Source of the DNA: Psychrobacter arcticus 273-4
GTDB lineage: Bacteria; Pseudomonadota; Gammaproteobacteria; Pseudomonadales; Moraxellaceae
Assembly (NCBI RefSeq): GCF_000012305.1
Contig: NC_007204.1
Span: forward strand, 558,001-622,000
DNA: 64,000 bases
Reading direction: 5' to 3'
Shown: piece by piece, positions 1 through 27,465 of the stretch
How the letters are laid out: every line of letters starts with the position of its first letter
How positions within the stretch are numbered: the stretch's first letter is position 1
Position numbers and translations under genes: made by a program
The notes under the pieces: generated by a model
Seen by the model: the letters and a program-made list of their open reading frames with translations, nothing else
Database searches by the model: none
What the model was told of the DNA's origin: nothing

Positions 1-988
1 GATAAATTTTTGGTAGCTGACAATATAAGCCATGATTTTGTTGCTCCGCGTAATTTAGTAGATGTTGCAATGAATGAGTTTTTGAAGCATGCGCAAGATG
101 CGATATAACAGATTCCAGTTTATTGGCCCTTACGGCTTTTCTAGTTTTGTATAAGCTATGCTTTCTAATAAATCTTCCGGAGCGCCATGTTCTATAGCCA
201 CAGAAGTTAGCGCCTCTTTTGGTATTGGCTATCGTTGATCGTGATAAGGTCAGTTTGAGCTTTTGTTCTACAAAATCCGTTAGGAGCTTTCTGTAAGTCA
301 GCGCTTGCGCTCTGGTCAAGCCAAACAATAAGAAGTCATCCACATAACGACAATACCCGGCGGCTGGCTTCAGCACTCGTGTGGCGTAGTGGTCTACAGG
401 ATTCATGTATATCAGCGCAAACATTTGCGATAGTAGGTTGCCAATTGGTATGCCTTTGGGTTCGGGATAGTCCGCAAACAACATCATCAAATCGACCAAG
501 CGCTTATCCTTAATCTTTCTTTCTAATAATTTTCTGAGAGTCGGTCTGTCTATGCTGTAAAAGAACTTCTTTATGTCCAACTGTAGCGTATAGGTATTGG
601 GGCCGGCTCTTCTAAGTGCGTCTTGTGCATACTCAGCTGCTTTGTGTGTCCCAAGTCCGGTGCGACAGGCAAACGACTGGTCTATAAATGTTTTATCAAA
701 TATTGGCATGACTCTTAAATAGATTGCATATTGCACAACACAATCCCTAAATGCTGGGGCATATATCTCCCGCTTTTTTGGCTCATATACTATAAATTTA
801 AAATAAGGTCTTGGTTTGTAGGTGTTATTTGCCAACTCTTCTTGTAATTCATTTAGCTCGCGGCCTAGGCTTTTCTCAAACTGAAAACACCCACGTCGAC
901 CACCCTTACTTTTCTTTGCGCCCAAATAGCCTTCCCATAATGATTCGCCTGAGACTACGGATTCGTATAAGTTACCAATCCTTTTCAT
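1..988 (-). CDS. DGR reverse transcriptase (runs off the window)
   Basis: The reading frame starts at an ATG at 988, with AAGGA at 994-998 as ribosome binding site, and stays open for 329 residues to the window edge. It copies the template-repeat RNA with adenine errors during mutagenic retrohoming. Polymerase motifs are visible: LDIKKFFYSID at residues 137-147, GIPIGNLLSQ at 179-188 and the catalytic YVDD at 215-218. The SQ ending of the 179-188 motif is typical of DGR enzymes and unlike the QGxxxSP of group II intron enzymes. No maturase or endonuclease domain is seen in the visible part. The gene lies directly downstream of the template repeat, as in the Bordetella phage BPP-1 order target-avd-TR-RT. 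The C-terminus is not visible. Confidence 0.95.
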   Translation of the reverse strand, partial: MKRIGNLYESVVSGESLWEGYLGAKKSKGGRRGCFQFEKSLGRELNELQEELANNTYKPRPYFKFIVYEPKKREIYAPAFRDCVVQYAIYLRVMPIFDKTFIDQSFACRTGLGTHKAAEYAQDALRRAGPNTYTLQLDIKKFFYSIDRPTLRKLLERKIKDKRLVDLMMLFADYPEPKGIPIGNLLSQMFALIYMNPVDHYATRVLKPAAGYCRYVDDFLLFGLTRAQALTYRKLLTDFVEQKLKLTLSRSTIANTKRGANFCGYRTWRSGRFIRKHSLYKTRKAVRANKLESVISHLAHASKTHSLQHLLNYAEQQNHGLYCQLPKIY

Positions 989-998
989 AACAATCCTT

Positions 999-1047
999 AA
1001 AAAAAACACCCCGCCTGACTTTCGCTTACGCTACTAGAAAGGCGGGG
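999..1047 (-). terminator. Hairpin plus T-run between TR and reverse transcriptase gene
   Basis: On the minus strand the arms CCCCGCCTTTC and GAAAG-TCA-GGCGGGG pair as 5+7 bp with a 3-nt bulge. They are followed shortly by eight T residues at 999-1006. It looks like an intrinsic terminator but sits only a few bases before the RT ribosome binding site. It may end or process the template RNA, limit RT expression, or act as the structured spacer known to matter downstream of TR in BPP-1. Confidence 0.7.
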
Positions 1048-1124
1048 TTAAACCGATTTCGCTTAAAGCAGGAAAACGTCTCCCTTGGCACCAGTCGGCA
1101 GCTTGCCGATTTAGGTGATGCCGA

Positions 1125-1241
1125 GTCCGCCCGGACACCGATGTTGTTGTTGCTGTTCGTCCGAGAATTGTTGCAATTGACTGTCCAGACCCCAGCATTC
1201 GCGCTGTTGTTCCAGTTGCCGCCCACAATCGGGCACATATT
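1125..1241 (-). repeat. DGR template repeat (TR)
   Basis: This 117-nt segment aligns without gaps to 1693-1809 in the tail protein gene, at an offset of 568. In the 113-nt core (1125-1237) there are 15 differences, and every one is an adenine of the TR coding strand. Two more A substitutions follow at 1238 and 1241. TR is rich in AAC, AAT and AGC codons, which can mutate widely without creating stop codons. About 135 nt separate it from the RT start, similar to the spacer of BPP-1. Short open frames across it are not genes. Confidence 0.95.
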
Positions 1242-1268
1242 AAGACGCCTCCCTTTTTTTGGAGCACC

Positions 1269-1652
1269 TTATTGTTTTAGTGATTTAATCCAACCGCCGA
1301 TTATCTTACCGATCTCATCGATACTTGCTGATATCACAAGATAACGTTTGGCATTTAATTTTTGCACAGACATCTTTTCGGTTTTAGGATGACCAAAATA
1401 GGACAGCTCGAACGCAAGTCGGACTTGCATTCTTAGCTGCTCATGCTTGATGTCTAGATTGGTAAGCGTCGTCTTCTTGTGATAACGCTTTTGTGCTTCG
1501 ACAATGTAGTCATACATATCGTAAGCAGTTTGTCTTATTTTAAGCGCCAAGCCATGTTTCTCATGGCTTGGGAAATGATTAAGATAGATATTTAAAAGCT
1601 TCATAGTTTGTATGAACTTCTTATCTAAATTCGACTCACTATCTACTGCCAA
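1269..1652 (-). CDS. avd: Avd-like DGR accessory protein
   Basis: This 127-residue, basic and mostly helical protein lies between the variable gene and the template repeat, exactly where Avd sits in BPP-1-type cassettes. Avd proteins form a pentameric four-helix-bundle barrel that binds the reverse transcriptase and template RNA and are required for retrohoming. Length, helical pattern and position fit the four-helix-bundle family. The likely start is a TTG at 1652, with GGAG about 8 nt upstream. No ATG start gives a comparable length. The family call rests on context and pattern, since no profile search was run. Confidence 0.85.
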   Translation of the reverse strand: MAVDSESNLDKKFIQTMKLLNIYLNHFPSHEKHGLALKIRQTAYDMYDYIVEAQKRYHKKTTLTNLDIKHEQLRMQVRLAFELSYFGHPKTEKMSVQKLNAKRYLVISASIDEIGKIIGGWIKSLKQ

Positions 1653-1677
1653 CTCAAACTCCTTCGCTATCGCTCAG

Positions 1678-3144
1678 TCAAACAGAGTACAAGGCCGCCC
1701 GGACACCGAAGTGGTGGTCGCCGTTCGTCCGAGAAAAGTAGCAATGGACTGCCCAGACCCCAGCATACGCGCCGTAGCTCCAGTTGCCGCCCACAATCGG
1801 GCACAAATGCTCAATGCGGTTGTCGTAGAATCGATCATTACCGTACGCATTTGTCCCACCAGCGCCTCCAAGCTGCGGAATGCCTGCGCACGATGCTGAC
1901 CAAGCGAGTCCGCTGTTTGCGGTTGAGAACACTTGATTGGTTGTAGAGCCGATAGCAAAGTTTCTAACAACGCCTGTCAGCTCTCCGTAGCTTGCACCTA
2001 ATGAATCGTAACTAGCGGTCATTGCCGCCGTGCCCCACGCATCGGTCGCAAGAGTAGCGCCGCTGGTGAGCGCTGAAGCTTTAGCGCTGGTTCTTAATAC
2101 ATAGAAGCTACCTGCTGTTTGCGTGAGTCCTAGCGCAACTTCCCACATATTCCCGTTCAAATCAGCGACACCGCTGTATTGACCGTTATGAGTGGTCTTT
2201 GCAAAGGGTTGAGCTGAGCCTGTTTTTCCAGCTGTTAAATATCCAGTGCCTTCATACAATACGGCAGTGTCGTTGACGTCACGTAAAGCGTTGTTGTTAT
2301 TGCCTTTCGGAAAATTATTGACACCTGTTGCATCATACCAAGCACATGCTGCGCTACTTGTTGCAGCTTGCGCGTGAGCCATTGATAGTAATGACAATGC
2401 GCGCTGAATAAAGATAGTTGTTGCGAAAAACGCACTACCGCGTGTTTTAGCAGCATCAATTGCGCCAGCTAGGGTATTTGCTGGTGCGCCAGTTAAGCCG
2501 CTGAATGGCGCATTGGCGCTGGAAGACGATAACGGTATACCATTTTTGATAGAGCTTGCTTTGCCAGCATTATTGCTGCATTGATACTTATCAACAAAAA
2601 AGCCATCTTTGATTTGTCCATCATCATAAAACGCACGATGTAGCGCATACCCTGCTGCATTGGCTGCTACCACGTCTACAAAATCGTAAATAGACTTAAC
2701 ATCTAGCGCATTAACGCCATACTTTGCATAATTAGGACTGTTAACATGTCCCCATCGATAATAAAAGCGTGGCACGTAAACCATCACCGAGCCATCGCTA
2801 TACTGATAATTACCCCAGTTTTCATGACCTTTTATTGCCGTGCCTTGCATTTGCGACATACCAGTTGGTAGTTTATTGGTAATGCCAGTGCCAAATCCGA
2901 GCGCACCTTGGACTCCTATGTCGTTAAATTGGCTCATCAGCGTATCAGTAAATAGCTTTTGTGATATAGCTATGGTTGTTGATTGACCCAAATCGGATGT
3001 CACGCTAGGTATTGACGCTCTGACGTCTGCAAACTCAGCTACCACGGCGTCAAAATTGGTATTCACTTTGCCGTTGCTGGTCCGGGCGCTGTCGCCGCCG
3101 ATGCCGCTGGGCTCGGCACCAAGGTTTATTTTTTGTATTTGCAT
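1678..3144 (-). CDS. DGR-diversified tail protein with C-type-lectin-like end
   Basis: This 488-residue protein is the DGR target. The N-terminus, about residues 1-70 with NLGAEPSGIGGD and KVNTNFDAV, resembles the start of many phage tail fibre and tip proteins. The C-terminal half has the look of a formylglycine-generating-enzyme or C-type-lectin fold, with GVADLNGNMWEVALG, a Gly/Asn-rich core and a final GGNW...GVR motif. Variable residues lie in the last 40 residues and should form the ligand-binding face. The gene follows a gpM-like tail gene and precedes avd. It probably recognises the host receptor; that role is inferred from other DGR phages. Confidence 0.92.
   Translation of the reverse strand: MQIQKINLGAEPSGIGGDSARTSNGKVNTNFDAVVAEFADVRASIPSVTSDLGQSTTIAISQKLFTDTLMSQFNDIGVQGALGFGTGITNKLPTGMSQMQGTAIKGHENWGNYQYSDGSVMVYVPRFYYRWGHVNSPNYAKYGVNALDVKSIYDFVDVVAANAAGYALHRAFYDDGQIKDGFFVDKYQCSNNAGKASSIKNGIPLSSSSANAPFSGLTGAPANTLAGAIDAAKTRGSAFFATTIFIQRALSLLSMAHAQAATSSAACAWYDATGVNNFPKGNNNNALRDVNDTAVLYEGTGYLTAGKTGSAQPFAKTTHNGQYSGVADLNGNMWEVALGLTQTAGSFYVLRTSAKASALTSGATLATDAWGTAAMTASYDSLGASYGELTGVVRNFAIGSTTNQVFSTANSGLAWSASCAGIPQLGGAGGTNAYGNDRFYDNRIEHLCPIVGGNWSYGAYAGVWAVHCYFSRTNGDHHFGVRAALYSV
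1693..1809 (-). repeat. DGR variable repeat (VR)
   Basis: This is the copy of TR at the 3' end of the tail protein gene. Relative to TR, 14 codons are altered: Asn to Ser, Tyr, His, Phe or Asp, Ser to Gly, Thr to Ala, Ile to Phe and Asp to Ala. All changes are at template adenines. The last 16 coding bases, ending TCCGGGCGGCC, are nearly invariant and GC-rich. That fits the initiation-of-mutagenic-homing end of a DGR. The gene stops 15 nt after the repeat. Confidence 0.95.
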
Positions 3145-3152
3145 GACGATCC

Positions 3153-3491
3153 TTAAGTATTATTGAACTGCTCAAAATTGAGCGTGATTTGCCAATAGTC
3201 GCCTTTGCGTTGCGGTATCGATGCACCTGCGCAGGTGTATTGTTTGGTGTTGCCGTGTGGGTCGGTCCAGTAGAACGGCAGCACACCCGCATGCTCATCA
3301 ATGAATGCTTCGATGGGTTTGATGACGGTATCAAGTGCGCCGGTTTTGGTGCCTGACCAGTTTTTGGTTGTGTTATTGATGCCGGTTGATGAGTGCTGCG
3401 TGTAGCCGTCGCCAAACTGTGTTTTTTTGACTCTGTACTGTTTGTCAGCACTCGCACCCATATCAATCTGCCAGGGAAAAGTTTTTATCAT
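3153..3491 (-). CDS. Phage minor tail protein, lambda gpM-like
   Basis: This 112-residue protein fits the lambda M minor tail family in length, in the opening IKTFPWQIDMGAS, in KKTQFGDGYTQ and in the late FYWTDPHGNTKQYTCAG segment. Members form part of the tail tip below the tape measure. The chosen start is the ATG at 3491. A longer frame opens at a GTG at 3515, but that codon lies inside a terminator hairpin, so the ATG is preferred. In lambda, L, K, I and J follow, whereas here the DGR target begins 9 nt after this gene. Confidence 0.8.
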   Translation of the reverse strand: MIKTFPWQIDMGASADKQYRVKKTQFGDGYTQHSSTGINNTTKNWSGTKTGALDTVIKPIEAFIDEHAGVLPFYWTDPHGNTKQYTCAGASIPQRKGDYWQITLNFEQFNNT

Positions 3492-3504
3492 GTGATTGCC
3501 CACT

Positions 3505-3527
3505 AAAAAGCCCACTGGATAGTGGGC
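3505..3527 (-). terminator. Intrinsic terminator after the lipoprotein moron
   Basis: GCCCACT and AGTGGGC at 3510-3527 form a perfect 7-bp stem with a 4-nt loop on the minus strand. A run of five T residues follows at 3505-3509. It lies between the lipoprotein stop and the gpM-like start. Confidence 0.8.
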
Positions 3528-4010: not shown

Positions 4011-7000
4011 CTAGCGTTTGGCGTATGTTTTATCTAACGTCCCGTTAGGCCGCATCATTTTCATGACCTCGCTACTGACGACTGCTGCCAGACCTTGCCC
4101 GATTTGCTTGCCGTACTGACTGTTTGATTCGACATTTGAGTTGCCGTCCATCGACACGGTCACATTGACGTTGATATTTGGCGCGCTAGATTGACGATCA
4201 TAAGTACCATTGTGCATCGCCTCAAGCTCAGGGCGATATTTTCGGGTAGTGGGTGCGTTTGCGACAAACTCATTTGCGTGAACAAGACCCGCAGGATCTG
4301 AATCGCGACCGGTTGCCGTAAAGCCACCGGTTTGATAACCTGGTAACTCCAATGTCATTGATGATGCAGCGCTAATGATGCGGGCAAACTCAGTAGCGAT
4401 GGTTGCGGCGCCTGCTATTTTTTGAGATAGCGTTGCGCCCTCGGCCATCGCATCACCCCAAGCTTCATACATGTTCAGACCGGCAGATGCCATAACAAAG
4501 GATTGCTGACCGGCAAACATGAGTTTGTACGCAAGATTTTGTTCACCAAGCATGGTTTTAAATGAGCCTGCGAGACTAGCGGCTGTCTGTTCAGCAGTGG
4601 ATAGCGTGAGTTGAGTTGCTGCCATCACAAACTCACGTTGAGCATCGAGCTTGGCTTGTTGATAGCTGACAGTCAAGTTAAGCTCTGCTTCTTCGGCGGC
4701 TTTTATGACGTCTAACCGACTTTTATATTGCTGTGCAATAGAGTAATTTGCGCCGGTGCCATTCATATCTGCTTGCTGAGCATTGAACCCATCACGCGCG
4801 CCTTTTTGCAACTGACCGGTATCGTATATCTGAGCGCCAGCCATTGCGTTGCGCAAGTCAGACTTTTGCGAAGGATTAATATCAGTACGCATATCAAGGG
4901 CACGGCGTTGATCCGCATAAGATTGCCGTAAGGCTGCTAAATCTGATTGGCCAATGCTAGTTAGTTGGCGCAGTTCGCTTTCAAACGCATAACGACGTTC
5001 ATCAAGTGCCAGTTGTTCAGCTTGATTCAGCGCGTCAATCTTAGCTTTGCGCAGCTCTTTATCCATTTTGATTGTTAATTGGATTTCGCGTCGCTCAAGG
5101 GCATACTGATTGCGAATACGCTCAGCGTCTGTTTGCTCAGATTGCTGTGCGTATTGCATTTCTTGATCGTGAGTGAGCTGCATTTGTGCAAGCTTGGTAT
5201 TAGCGACATCGATAGCATCATCGATGAACGCTGTGCGCTCATCATCATTAAAGCCGCTTGCATTAATCTTGTCGATTTGGTTGGCAAGCTGCATTTCAAT
5301 ACGAGTGGCTGCGTTTGCATACTCCATTCGAATGGCGGTGCGGTCTTTAGATTGCTGCTCAAGTATACGAGCTTGCTCTGAGGCAGCGCGCTGTTGTTCT
5401 TGCGCCAAGGCATTATTCTGTTGTTTGATATATTGAATATCAGCACCACCAGCTTTTGTCGCTTTTTGACCATAAACAGATACATGTAGATGGCCGCCAG
5501 TCGCATTCTTAGATGGGTTGGCATATTCATTTAATACTTTGACGCTATAGCCGTATTGAGCGGCGGCTTTTTTGATGATAGCGGCGGCGGAGGCGGCTTG
5601 ATTAGCATTCTTAAGTACAACATCAAAAGCTTGTCCTGATGCGTGCTTGCTATTAGTCCCCTTGTGGTAAGTGTCATTCAAAGCGCTAAAATATTTAAGG
5701 TCATTACCAAGTAGCGACTGCGTGACTTCAGCAAATTCAGCGGTATAACCGCGTACTTTACCACCAGCGATAGCTTCGTTAGCTTTAAGTTTAAGCCCGC
5801 TAAGTGCGGTGTTGCTGACGTAAGCAGCGCCTAATTCTTTGGCAGCTTTTAGTGCGGCTTTATCAGCTTTGGCTTTATCTTCAGCTGCCTTTTTAGCGGC
5901 TTCTTGTTGCTCCTGTTGTTCTTGTCCAGTTTTCCCAAGCTCTTGATTTATTTCAGCGAGTCGCTTTTTTTGTTCTATCAAAGCATCAACGGTTGCATTG
6001 CTGATGCCGCTGCCAAGTTCATCAACACCTTTTAATAAATCAGCATAACTTGACAGGCTGTCACGTATGTCTTGATCGACCATACGATTCATTTCACCGG
6101 CAGCTTTGATGTTACTACCCATTTTTATGGCTATTTCAAGACCACTATCTGCGATACCGACACCGTCCAATAGTGTGCTTATGATGGCGGCGACACCGCC
6201 AATAGAGCTGCCAACAGCGTCAAATGTAGCTGCCACGCCAATGCCGACTTTAGCGACCCCCTTGAATCCTATAGCTAAGTTTTGACCTGCTAGATAGGCG
6301 GCATCGGATGCGGTTTCAGTACCAGTCAGCTTAGTAGCGACATCCGCTAAGACAGGGATAAACCCTTTCACGAATTGTGTTTTTGCGCCATCAACGGACA
6401 ATTCCAACAAGTCGGTGGTAGCTTGAAGTTTTTGTGTGGCTACTATTGTTTCGTCGTCCATTACAGCGCCAGCATTTGCTGCGGCTTTTGCCCAGACATC
6501 AAAACCTTCGCCGCCATTAGCTAGCAATGGGATTAATGTAGTTGCGTCACTAGCCATGGCCTCCATATAAAAGGTCATTTCGTTTTGACCGATCTTGGCT
6601 TTCTCTAGGCTGTCATAGTATAACTGTAGGGCTTGTGGACCTGATAGATTGCGGAATTCGTCGGCAGTGACACCGATTTGTGGGGCGATATTCTCAAAGA
6701 AGTCAGCCATACCGCCGCCGCCAGTACTAAGAAAGTCACCTATCTTGTCTGACGTGTCTTGAAATATCGCGCCCAGAGCATCTTGTTCGATGCCCATTTT
6801 TTTCGCGCCAACAGTATATTTTTGAATTTCTTGTACAGATGAGTTTGCAACGTTGGCGGTGTGTTGAAGCTCATTAGCGAGTGCAACTTGCTCAACGACC
6901 AAGGCGGTAGTGGCGGCAGCAGCGACGCCGATAGCTGCACCTACTGCTGGTCCCATTTTATTTGCATATTCGCGCATATCGCTAAAAGCGGCGACGGTTT

Positions 7001-7082
7001 GTGTGCGGGCGTCTGCAATTGATTGGTTGAATGCGGCGGAGTTGGCAGCTAGTACGATTTCGAGGTAGGATAGGACTGCCAT
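4011..7082 (-). CDS. Tail tape measure protein with internal M15/VanY-like peptidase segment
   Basis: This 1023-residue protein follows the tail chaperones and has the lambda gpH-like pattern. There is an N-terminal start of the AVLSYLEIVLAAN type, hydrophobic segments near residues 43-65 and 255-320, long charged helical regions with many Gln, Glu and Lys (about 540-800), and the conserved C-terminal GGFTATG, AGLVHANEFV region. Residues about 425-540 look like a zinc DD-peptidase, with SKHASGQAFD near 477 and GGHLHV near 529, the H-x(n)-D...HxH layout of M15/VanY enzymes. It should set tail length and may cut peptidoglycan during DNA entry. ATG at 7082 follows GGAG. Confidence 0.93.
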   Translation of the reverse strand: MAVLSYLEIVLAANSAAFNQSIADARTQTVAAFSDMREYANKMGPAVGAAIGVAAAATTALVVEQVALANELQHTANVANSSVQEIQKYTVGAKKMGIEQDALGAIFQDTSDKIGDFLSTGGGGMADFFENIAPQIGVTADEFRNLSGPQALQLYYDSLEKAKIGQNEMTFYMEAMASDATTLIPLLANGGEGFDVWAKAAANAGAVMDDETIVATQKLQATTDLLELSVDGAKTQFVKGFIPVLADVATKLTGTETASDAAYLAGQNLAIGFKGVAKVGIGVAATFDAVGSSIGGVAAIISTLLDGVGIADSGLEIAIKMGSNIKAAGEMNRMVDQDIRDSLSSYADLLKGVDELGSGISNATVDALIEQKKRLAEINQELGKTGQEQQEQQEAAKKAAEDKAKADKAALKAAKELGAAYVSNTALSGLKLKANEAIAGGKVRGYTAEFAEVTQSLLGNDLKYFSALNDTYHKGTNSKHASGQAFDVVLKNANQAASAAAIIKKAAAQYGYSVKVLNEYANPSKNATGGHLHVSVYGQKATKAGGADIQYIKQQNNALAQEQQRAASEQARILEQQSKDRTAIRMEYANAATRIEMQLANQIDKINASGFNDDERTAFIDDAIDVANTKLAQMQLTHDQEMQYAQQSEQTDAERIRNQYALERREIQLTIKMDKELRKAKIDALNQAEQLALDERRYAFESELRQLTSIGQSDLAALRQSYADQRRALDMRTDINPSQKSDLRNAMAGAQIYDTGQLQKGARDGFNAQQADMNGTGANYSIAQQYKSRLDVIKAAEEAELNLTVSYQQAKLDAQREFVMAATQLTLSTAEQTAASLAGSFKTMLGEQNLAYKLMFAGQQSFVMASAGLNMYEAWGDAMAEGATLSQKIAGAATIATEFARIISAASSMTLELPGYQTGGFTATGRDSDPAGLVHANEFVANAPTTRKYRPELEAMHNGTYDRQSSAPNINVNVTVSMDGNSNVESNSQYGKQIGQGLAAVVSSEVMKMMRPNGTLDKTYAKR

Positions 7083-25723: not shown

Positions 25724-26113
25724 ATGGCTAATACAACTAATATTCCGCAAATTATTGACCAGCTTATCGAAGTAATACAAAATGGTGGCGGGTTGATTGA
25801 TTGGGTACAGGCTGAGCGCTTTGAGCAAATCACTGGTATCAAGCAATCAACGTTACGCGGCAAGCATGAAATGTGGCCAGAAGGCATTGTCTGGGCTAAG
25901 TTTGATGATGGTCGCCTCTATTATAGTATTGCGGGGTATAACAATTGGGCAAGTCAGCAAGCAGCAAATCGCTGCCCACAGGCGTCACCGAAAGAAACGG
26001 TACTATCCGTATCTGGTGGATGTGGCACAAAAAGAGGCGCTGGCAAACGCTTGAAAAGCTCCCCGCAACTGATCGGGGCTACACCACCGCGTCTGTTATC
26101 AGAAATCGCTTAG
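25724..26113 (+). CDS. Excisionase-like protein
   Basis: This protein of about 129 residues has a winged-helix-like N-terminal half (VQAERFEQITGIKQSTLRGK, WPEGIVWAKFDDGRLYY), typical of small phage excisionases beside tyrosine integrases. The second half of the frame overlaps the integrase start by about 170 nt and has low-complexity character, as in overlapping xis-int pairs. It should direct prophage excision. Confidence 0.7.
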   Translation: MANTTNIPQIIDQLIEVIQNGGGLIDWVQAERFEQITGIKQSTLRGKHEMWPEGIVWAKFDDGRLYYSIAGYNNWASQQAANRCPQASPKETVLSVSGGCGTKRGAGKRLKSSPQLIGATPPRLLSEIA

Positions 26114-27093
26114 CAGACCATGCCAAATGGGGCACACTTACTGAAGATATCATCAATGAGTTATGCGGTAACGATGATGCCCCAAAAACCACTCCTACCT
26201 TTTTAGATTACGCTAGGCTTTACCTGAAACAGTCAGATGTCAGTAAAGCCACCTTGCGTGAATACGCAAAGTCCCTCGATAGATACTGGATACCGCCCTG
26301 GTACCAACGCGAAATCCATACCATTACCGCAAAAGAAGTCCGCACATTGATAGCGGACATTATTTGGTCTAGCGAAAAGACGCGTAATAACAATCTGATC
26401 CCCTTGCGTGGGGTTTTTGGTATTGCATTAGATGATAGCGTCATCCATACCAACCCAGTCGATAAGATAAAAAACACCAAGCATCAATCACCGCCACCGG
26501 ACCCATTTAGCCGTGATGAAATGGAGCGTCTGCTTACCTGGTTGCATGACAAACACGGTAAAGATGAAGCGGTATATTGGCTATATTTTGAATTGGCATT
26601 CTGGACAGGTATGCGCACAGGCGAGCTGCTCGCACTGACTTGGGATGATATCGATTGGGATGCGGGACTAATCAAAGTCAGTAAAGTCATGAGTGATGGT
26701 GAGCTGGTTAATCGTACCAAGACAGCTGAATATCGTGATGTGTTTTTTAATGCACGCAGTGAAGATGCGCTGAAGCGATTAAAACGTATCAAATCAGCTG
26801 TGAGTGATCGTCTTTTTATGTCGCCGCGCTTTATTAATAGTGCTTGGCAAACAGATAAGACGCCAAGACGGGCGCTGACTGAAGCGATGAAAGCGACCGG
26901 CATACGACATCGTGCTACTTATACGACGCGCCATACTTTTATAACTAACTGTTTAACGGATGGATTGAATATATACTTTGTGGCCAAACAAACCGGCCAT
27001 AGCGTGAGAACGCTTGAGACTAGATATGCGCGCTGGATCGATGTATCGAAAGCGCGTAGTGAGATTGCTAAATTAAATACGGGGAGTAGGTAA
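25945..27093 (+). CDS. int: Tyrosine integrase
   Basis: This 382-residue recombinase starts at a TTG at 25945. The N-terminal part resembles a DUF3596/arm-binding domain, then a SAM-like core domain, then the catalytic domain with Arg 224 in GMRTGELLAL, Lys near 259, TTRHTF around 328-332 (Arg 329), His 352 and Tyr 361. Box II normally reads HxxR but here is YTTR, so Tyr replaces the usual His. It should recombine at the adjacent tRNA-Pro site. Confidence 0.95.
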   Translation: MGKSASSKSLPTGVTERNGTIRIWWMWHKKRRWQTLEKLPATDRGYTTASVIRNRLADHAKWGTLTEDIINELCGNDDAPKTTPTFLDYARLYLKQSDVSKATLREYAKSLDRYWIPPWYQREIHTITAKEVRTLIADIIWSSEKTRNNNLIPLRGVFGIALDDSVIHTNPVDKIKNTKHQSPPPDPFSRDEMERLLTWLHDKHGKDEAVYWLYFELAFWTGMRTGELLALTWDDIDWDAGLIKVSKVMSDGELVNRTKTAEYRDVFFNARSEDALKRLKRIKSAVSDRLFMSPRFINSAWQTDKTPRRALTEAMKATGIRHRATYTTRHTFITNCLTDGLNIYFVAKQTGHSVRTLETRYARWIDVSKARSEIAKLNTGSR

Positions 27094-27379: not shown

Positions 27380-27388
27380 AGTATTTCT

Positions 27389-27465
27389 TGGTCGGAACGG
27401 CAGGATTTGAACCTGCGACCACTACACCCCCAGTGTAGTGCGCTACCAGACTGCGCTACGCCCCG
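27389..27465 (-). tRNA. tRNA-Pro(GGG)
   Basis: The minus strand folds into a cloverleaf: an acceptor stem CGGGGCG/CGTTCCG with two G-T pairs, D stem GCGC/GCGC, anticodon stem CTACA/TGTAG with loop CTGGGGG (anticodon GGG), T arm GCAGG-TTCGAAT-CCTGC, and an encoded CCA end. The prophage lies directly beyond its 3' end, the typical use of a tRNA as attachment site. Confidence 0.97.

Follow-up and report, generated by a model that had tools for sequence, protein, structure and literature searches.

By error-prone reverse transcription, diversity-generating retroelements (DGRs) introduce mutations into a single chosen gene. An unsolved question is the way in which the resulting complementary DNA (cDNA) enters the variable repeat (VR) of that gene. 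This question is raised by a cassette at the left end of a 64,000-nucleotide (nt) stretch of Psychrobacter arcticus 273-4 (the window; positions 558001–622000 of the 2.65-Mb chromosome). On the basis of a template repeat (TR)/VR pair, the accessory protein Avd, the match of the reverse transcriptase (RT), the fold of the target protein and the gene order, the cassette is very probably a DGR of the type of Bordetella phage BPP-1, carried by a lambda/HK97-like prophage. The cassette itself is of a known kind; its less ordinary part is a stem-loop behind the VR that contains tandem G·A pairs. The components lie on the minus strand in the order target gene, VR, avd, TR and RT, as in BPP-1; an earlier note on this DNA had read the same order from the sequence, and open reading frame (ORF), repeat and profile searches bear it out. 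The features, in window coordinates, are:

1678–3144, minus strand: target gene, 488 residues, its C terminus encoded by the VR, with a predicted DGR variable-protein fold
1692–1808, minus strand: VR, target residues about 446–485
1692–1709, minus strand: 3′ end of the VR, resembling an initiation of mutagenic homing (IMH) element
1660–1679, minus strand: post-VR stem-loop with a GATA loop, overlapping the target stop codon
1269–1652, minus strand: avd, 127 residues, TTG start
1124–1240, minus strand: TR, flanked by avd and RT
989–1123, minus strand: TR–RT spacer, a predicted structured RNA
999–1047, minus strand: terminator-like hairpin with 8-base-pair (bp) arms and T8, at the 3′ end of the spacer directly before RT
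1–988, minus strand: RT, 355 residues in the genome, with its last codons left of the window

The TR (1240 to 1124) and the VR (1808 to 1692), which encodes the last 40 or so target residues, align over 117 nt with 16 mismatches. Every one of these stands at a TR adenine, as had been claimed for all mutated bases. A repeat search blind to adenines had already returned this 117-nt repeat at 86% identity. Half of the TR adenines (16 of 32) are changed in the VR, and the chance of an adenine-only pattern is 3 × 10^-11. At the 3′ end of the VR, 15 nt are the same as in the TR, followed by CCT in the VR and ACT in the TR, giving a GCCT/GACT mark. When the TR was searched against the genome, it returned itself, the single VR and one match of just 14 nt; no remote extra VRs were found.

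Relatives were collected from IMG/VR and genome scans and include, among the matches listed, Psychrobacter, a Sulfurovaceae metagenome-assembled genome and many uncultured phages. TR/VR pairs were sought in 166 loci (102 + 64), with loci on contigs already used left out, and 119 contained a pair. Removal of three poor loci (L098, L013 and L208) left 116, which were reduced to 74 by merging loci alike after the VR and, because L079 repeats L078, to 73 non-redundant loci including the window. The pair search scores adenine mismatches as free; in a control count over a fixed interior of 80 nt at the 74 loci, 963 mismatches fell at A and 57 at the other three bases combined. In 20 TR/VR pairs from relatives and the window, of which two locus pairs are copies of each other, 314 of 330 mismatches fell at A. 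The GACT (TR)/GCCT (VR) mark ends the homology in 66 of the 73 non-redundant loci, and the A-to-C share at TR adenines outside the mark is 282 of 1977. The difference between TR 1126 (A) and VR 1694 (C), one of the 16 mismatches, sits in this mark and is probably fixed; since it is family-wide, 15 of the 16 mismatches are likely mutagenic. The mark gives the window the asymmetry between IMH and IMH* that is looked for in a DGR, a constant difference that is known in kind from the accessible parts of reports on BPP-1 (PMC3240598) and on nanoarchaeal DGRs (PMC4372165).

The earlier note had called the parts intact. This holds for the frames of target, avd and RT, which are open; the left edge of the window cuts off the last codons of RT, the frame of which stays open in the genome to position 557921 (355 residues counted from the ATG at window position 988). 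This ATG is the more likely start compared with the GTG at 1009, judging from the AAGGA just 5′ of it. The YVDD and IGNLLSQ motifs named in the earlier note were both found intact, and the pattern of the latter, [IVL]GxxxSQ, is shared by 41 of the 42 DGR rows and by one of the seven control RTs. The RT matches PHROG 1423 ‘Reverse transcriptase’ (E = 8 × 10^-92), and its best match among solved structures is Protein Data Bank (PDB) 8ub7 (E = 7 × 10^-45), whose entries also contain Avd and which we take to be the BPP-1 complex; the best group II-type RT among solved structures follows at E = 4 × 10^-18. Together with the IGNLLSQ motif, this match marks the enzyme as a DGR-type RT, with 34% identity to the RT of BPP-1. 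In the RT tree, 39 of the 42 DGR rows, including BPP-1, group apart from the seven controls, with weak support (81/54).

The product of avd matches Pfam bAvd (66.2 bits, cut-off 40) and PHROG 3206, which provides the accessory protein of a DGR. A PDB profile search with the Avd alignment A2 was rejected as proof of Avd, being circular (A2 includes the BPP-1 Avd), and served only to find entries containing both Avd and RT chains. The target protein was modelled with AlphaFold2 from 46 aligned sequences (mean predicted local distance difference test score 82.9). The predicted fold is similar to that of the Thermus aquaticus variable protein TaqVP (PDB 5vf4; Foldseek E = 1.4 × 10^-12; VIA Z 28.8 over 299 residues, across which the two differ in sequence with 20% identity). 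Weaker matches are Mtd (Z 11.6), PvdO (10.7), Treponema variable protein 1, presumably TvpA (10.4), and formylglycine-generating enzymes (9 to 10), and in the model TaqVP alone is clearly separated from the general fold background. The target would accordingly be a C-type-lectin-like protein with a C-terminal VR, and the phage may diversify its receptor-binding tail protein. Dulem virus 37 has a gene preceding avd (1602–2681) and a short ORF (3207–3422) that are both annotated as calicheamicin/enediyne biosynthesis proteins; the pair search placed a TR at 3209–3323, within the short ORF, and these labels are probably misannotations of a DGR target and TR.

The TR–RT spacer is predicted by RNAalifold, from 10 loci, to form 33 pairs, 14 of them with compensatory changes, consistent with a structured RNA. 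Five or more T stand directly before RT in 10 of 52 measurable loci (61 given): eight from the Psychrobacter clade (L008 and L009 being identical to each other), L044 and Pseudomonas phage Bise. Clade members below this threshold are L010, with four T, and L017, with an interrupted run and outside the 52. A simple terminator scan omits the hairpin at 999–1047, the loop of which exceeds the limit of the scan; such a T-run hairpin could end the TR RNA before RT. In the mechanism that we propose, the TR-spacer RNA would be bound by Avd and RT, and an error-prone cDNA, with errors at adenines, would be made from the TR and replace the VR. The 15-nt IMH would set the 3′ limit of replacement, the GACT/GCCT mark would keep the direction from TR to VR, and the new C terminus would alter what the tail protein binds. 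The cDNA would be complementary to the sense strand, and the stem-loop behind the VR would aid homing by holding that strand open for cDNA pairing.

Signs of activity were found among the relatives. In 11 locus pairs with avd regions of equal length, these regions are at least 90% identical. Two of the pairs (L017/L018 and L008/L009) agree over their whole length, and the nine pairs whose VRs differ do so 125 times at TR adenines and 3 times at other positions; the nine are drawn from 15 loci and are not all independent, three of them lying among L075, L077 and L083. Two of the nine (L071/L106 and L080/L082) align in the post-TR stretch only with gaps. L075 and L083 agree at each of the 1664 backbone positions compared and differ at 19 VR adenine sites.

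A number of observations weigh against the reading as a DGR, or as one still at work. BPP-1 joins the RT family at the weak support given above, and L012, L013 and L014 are placed next to the controls; none of the RT models matched in Pfam, PHROG or NCBIfam scans bears the name DGR. The NCBIfam score of Avd (79.2 bits) is slightly below the cut-off of 80, the target has no Pfam or NCBIfam match, its residues 1–32 and 46–68 are poorly modelled, and besides TaqVP, proteins of the formylglycine-generating-enzyme type reach scores (Z up to 10.7) similar to that of Mtd. With dnaA at genome position 955, the target gene of the lysogen runs opposite to replication, an arrangement for which recent Escherichia coli work reports lower efficiency (PMC12875486); diversification may occur mainly during phage growth. 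In the clade of the window, both near-identical pairs (L017/L018 and L008/L009) have identical VRs, so recent activity there is not supported, and no VR-differing pair was found in the Psychrobacter clade, all nine coming from more distant relatives. These identical VRs would also be expected of a fossil DGR, complete in sequence, with homing lost and the VR frozen in the lineage. Decay does occur in the family: an ORF of L097 (6299–6622) joins the start of avd to the end of RT, and L053, L056 and L081 keep only RT ends. We nonetheless regard a fossil as improbable, in view of the open target, avd and RT frames, the preserved RT motifs, TR, spacer and IMH, and the concentration of mismatches at A across the 20 TR/VR pairs. 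The four remnant loci retain the stem-loop. Decay of a DGR by deletion would freeze the tail protein. An RT from a group II intron, a retron or a defence system, beside an incidental repeat, is scarcely conceivable: NCBIfam returns group_II_RT_mat and five other models, every one far below its cut-off, whereas the best PDB match is to an RT whose structure was determined together with Avd, the [IVL]GxxxSQ motif is shared by almost all DGR rows and by one control, and avd, TR and VR are all in place, the TR/VR pair and avd already contradicting such an origin. Neither of the contrary outcomes named beforehand (an RT that groups with group II introns or retrons, and VR changes away from TR adenines) appeared.

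The published element of the BPP-1 type has a GC-rich stem of 7–10 bp and a 4-nt GRNA loop, and lies 4–34 bp after the VR (PMC3240598, accessible part). The window has GACTGAGC-GATA-GCGAAGGA, an eight-pair stem with two tandem G·A steps, in which, counted from the loop, two Watson–Crick pairs are followed by A·G and G·A. The GATA loop, 20 nt after the VR, is of the BPP-1 type in sequence and distance; the stem is not a GC-rich Watson–Crick stem of 7–10 bp. The pattern GA-NN-GRNA-N′N′-GA, with an invariant tandem G·A step, is present at 47 of the 73 loci, including the window, and its loop begins 19–22 nt past the VR end in 43 of the 47. Ordinary Watson–Crick stems occur at 17 loci, which include those of BPP-1 and Bise, and the remaining 9 loci belong to neither class by rule. 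In mononucleotide shuffles, the G·A motif arises at 0.14% and the Watson–Crick stem at 0.26%; reverse complements gave 0 of 74 and the stretches after the TR 0 of 74. The inner pairs covary across the 47 loci (CG/GC in 36, CG/AT in 7, TA/GC in 3 and CG/GT in 1), and the outer arms of a locus pair with each other over 4 bp or longer in 24 of the 47, compared with 15% of swapped flanks, and over 3 bp or longer in 29 of the 47, compared with 32%; the window reaches 3. As a common genomic repeat the motif was rejected: GAGCGATAGCGA occurs twice in 2.65 Mb, the other copy far from the prophage.

In DNA, tandem 5′-GA-3′/3′-AG-5′ steps give stable pairs of the sheared type. The complement of the tandem G·A pairs, TC facing TC, should not form, so the stem is expected to fold on the sense strand alone, or in messenger RNA (mRNA), and this speaks against a symmetrical cruciform. 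We therefore give an even chance to the reading that the target-recognition stem-loop of this family folds on the sense strand only, as a one-strand hairpin where the cDNA pairs. With the loop and two Watson–Crick pairs fixed, a tally over 80 of 82 loci, in which related loci are counted apart, gave 27 G·T to 9 of the mirror A·C and 133 A·G to 14 of the mirror C·T. A DNA energy model favours the sense strand at 42 of the 47 loci, but the average margin is about 1 kcal/mol. In the accessible text of the 2011 BPP-1 study (PMC3240598), cleavage assays do not tell whether hairpins form on both strands, and an orientation effect was not found. The 2026 E. coli work ties homing to single-strandedness of the sense strand and proposes that the stem-loop prolongs an open single-stranded target (PMC12875486, accessible part); a sense-only stem fits this proposal. 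One result tells against the sense-strand hairpin: DNA folding failed as support for the stem of the window (−0.8 kcal/mol, z = −0.14).

An mRNA hairpin, or a ribosome-binding context for avd, would be an alternative to a role in homing. In the window, the AAGGAG before avd overlaps the 3′ arm of the stem, the RNA model gives −3.8 for the sense and −0.6 for the antisense strand, and a sense-only stem suits mRNA equally with single-stranded DNA. The motif is also lost along with avd. In the 102-locus set, 37 loci had no TR/VR pair and 34 of these were examined; leaving out 12 that ran off the contig and L061 (130 nt) gave 21, in which the motif is kept in 3 of 14 target loci that show neither avd nor RT in the 1.3–5 kb available downstream and in 7 of 7 with an avd or RT remnant (Fisher P = 0.001). 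We judge this account unlikely, since the motif occupies the place and distance of the stem-loop required for BPP-1 homing (PMC3240598, accessible part), relatives carry Watson–Crick GRNA stems at that position, and some hairpins, such as that of L049, have, as judged by eye, no ribosome site in the arm. Nor is it probable that the conserved sequence is a direct repeat (AGCGA-T-AGCGA) or a protein site, to which the inner pairs C-G and G-C shared by 36 of the 47 loci would lend themselves: the variants GAAC-GATA-GTGA and GAGT-GATA-ACGA destroy the repeat and preserve the pairing, and the excess of outer arms that pair over 4 bp or longer, a length not reached in the window, points to a stem.

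The G·A stem is not a feature of all DGRs, as Watson–Crick stems of at least 6 pairs are present in every one of eight further phage DGRs (L215–L222, with Dulem virus 37 as L216), which were taken from 120 phage records that matched the RT. A single origin of the G·A class was likewise rejected: the RT tree (63 rows) needs 12 changes, 8 of them forced by well-supported branches, and the target tree (47 rows) needs 6, with 4 forced. From these trees, the class appears to have spread by exchange or repeated switching, and recombination of 3′ ends is also possible. A natural stem that pairs on one strand only would make the strand question directly testable, and a screen that looks for perfect inverted repeats would probably overlook stems of this class. 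Among the matches listed in our literature search, no title or abstract start reports G·A stems in DGRs (subscription papers were outside its scope), and no paper on DGRs in Psychrobacter or Moraxella was found in the freely readable literature; Psychrobacter is not named in the main text of a 2021 DGR survey (PMC8144416, accessible part; supplements outside the scope).

The reading of the surroundings as a Psychrobacter-like prophage also stood. The host is close to P. faecalis (93% nucleotide identity over 6 kb of ribosomal-protein region), and the element lies inside a prophage with an integrase, bounded over about 35.4 kb by a 28-bp attachment (att) repeat, with the target gene in the tail module. 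The neighbouring features are:

3153–3515, minus strand: minor tail protein (gpM-like), upstream neighbour of the target gene
4011–7082, minus strand: tail tape measure protein
25945–27093, plus strand: prophage integrase
27388–27415, no strand: right-hand att repeat (28 bp), which overlaps the tRNA-Pro end; the left-hand copy is at genome position 550056

Nine of ten scanned prophage proteins match PHROGs (integrase, repressor, terminase, portal, major head protein, tape measure, central tail fibre J, gpL-like minor tail protein and endolysin); a 132-residue ORF between the RT end and the gpL-like gene has no PHROG match. Within the genus, 3 of 105 genomes, including that of the window, carry the RT at 76% identity or more, and a further 7 give weak RT matches (E = 2 × 10^-4 to 1.5 × 10^-6). 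Psychrobacter sp. 72-O-c (NZ_CAJHBI010000012.1) holds two 13-kb DGR stretches (L008 and L009) that are identical throughout and 34,795 bases apart, about one phage length, which reflects either two lysogenic copies in tandem or an artefact of assembly; its genome has a third DGR (L010). Two other Psychrobacter genomes (L123 in G034 and L124 in G004) have a relative of the target gene and no RT match, and the GCCT mark and the stem-loop are absent from both.

Psychrobacter phage Psymv2 shares the tail genes on either side of the cassette (gpM-like and gpL-like, about 80–87% nucleotide identity), but has no annotated RT and carries in place of the cassette an unrelated 287-residue orf41, annotated as a tail fibre protein and rejected as a relative of the target (best E = 0.058). 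Because the flanks are shared and orf41 is unrelated, the site is probably an exchange point for tail proteins. The DGR of Pseudomonas phage Bise (OR683401) has the RT that ranks first among matches in the phage collection (54.7% identity; Avd 57%) and shares the GACT/GCCT mark and the T-run before RT, whereas its post-VR stem is of the ordinary Watson–Crick kind and its target is alike in the C-terminal part only (31%, residues 255–484). The nanoarchaeal DUSEL4 DGRs, as far as the accessible part of the report describes them (PMC4372165), share a constant IMH/IMH* base difference with a template A and a constrained hairpin loop, and differ in having three-base GRA loops and TGGAAT/TGGGGT marks. 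BPP-1 (mtd-avd-TR-brt) shares the gene order, the TR/VR differences at adenines, a GRNA-loop element 3′ of the VR and a TR–RT spacer. The window differs from it in a target nearer to TaqVP than to Mtd, in the T-run hairpin before RT, which was not seen in BPP-1, and in a stem that alternates two Watson–Crick with two G·A pairs where BPP-1 has eight Watson–Crick base pairs.

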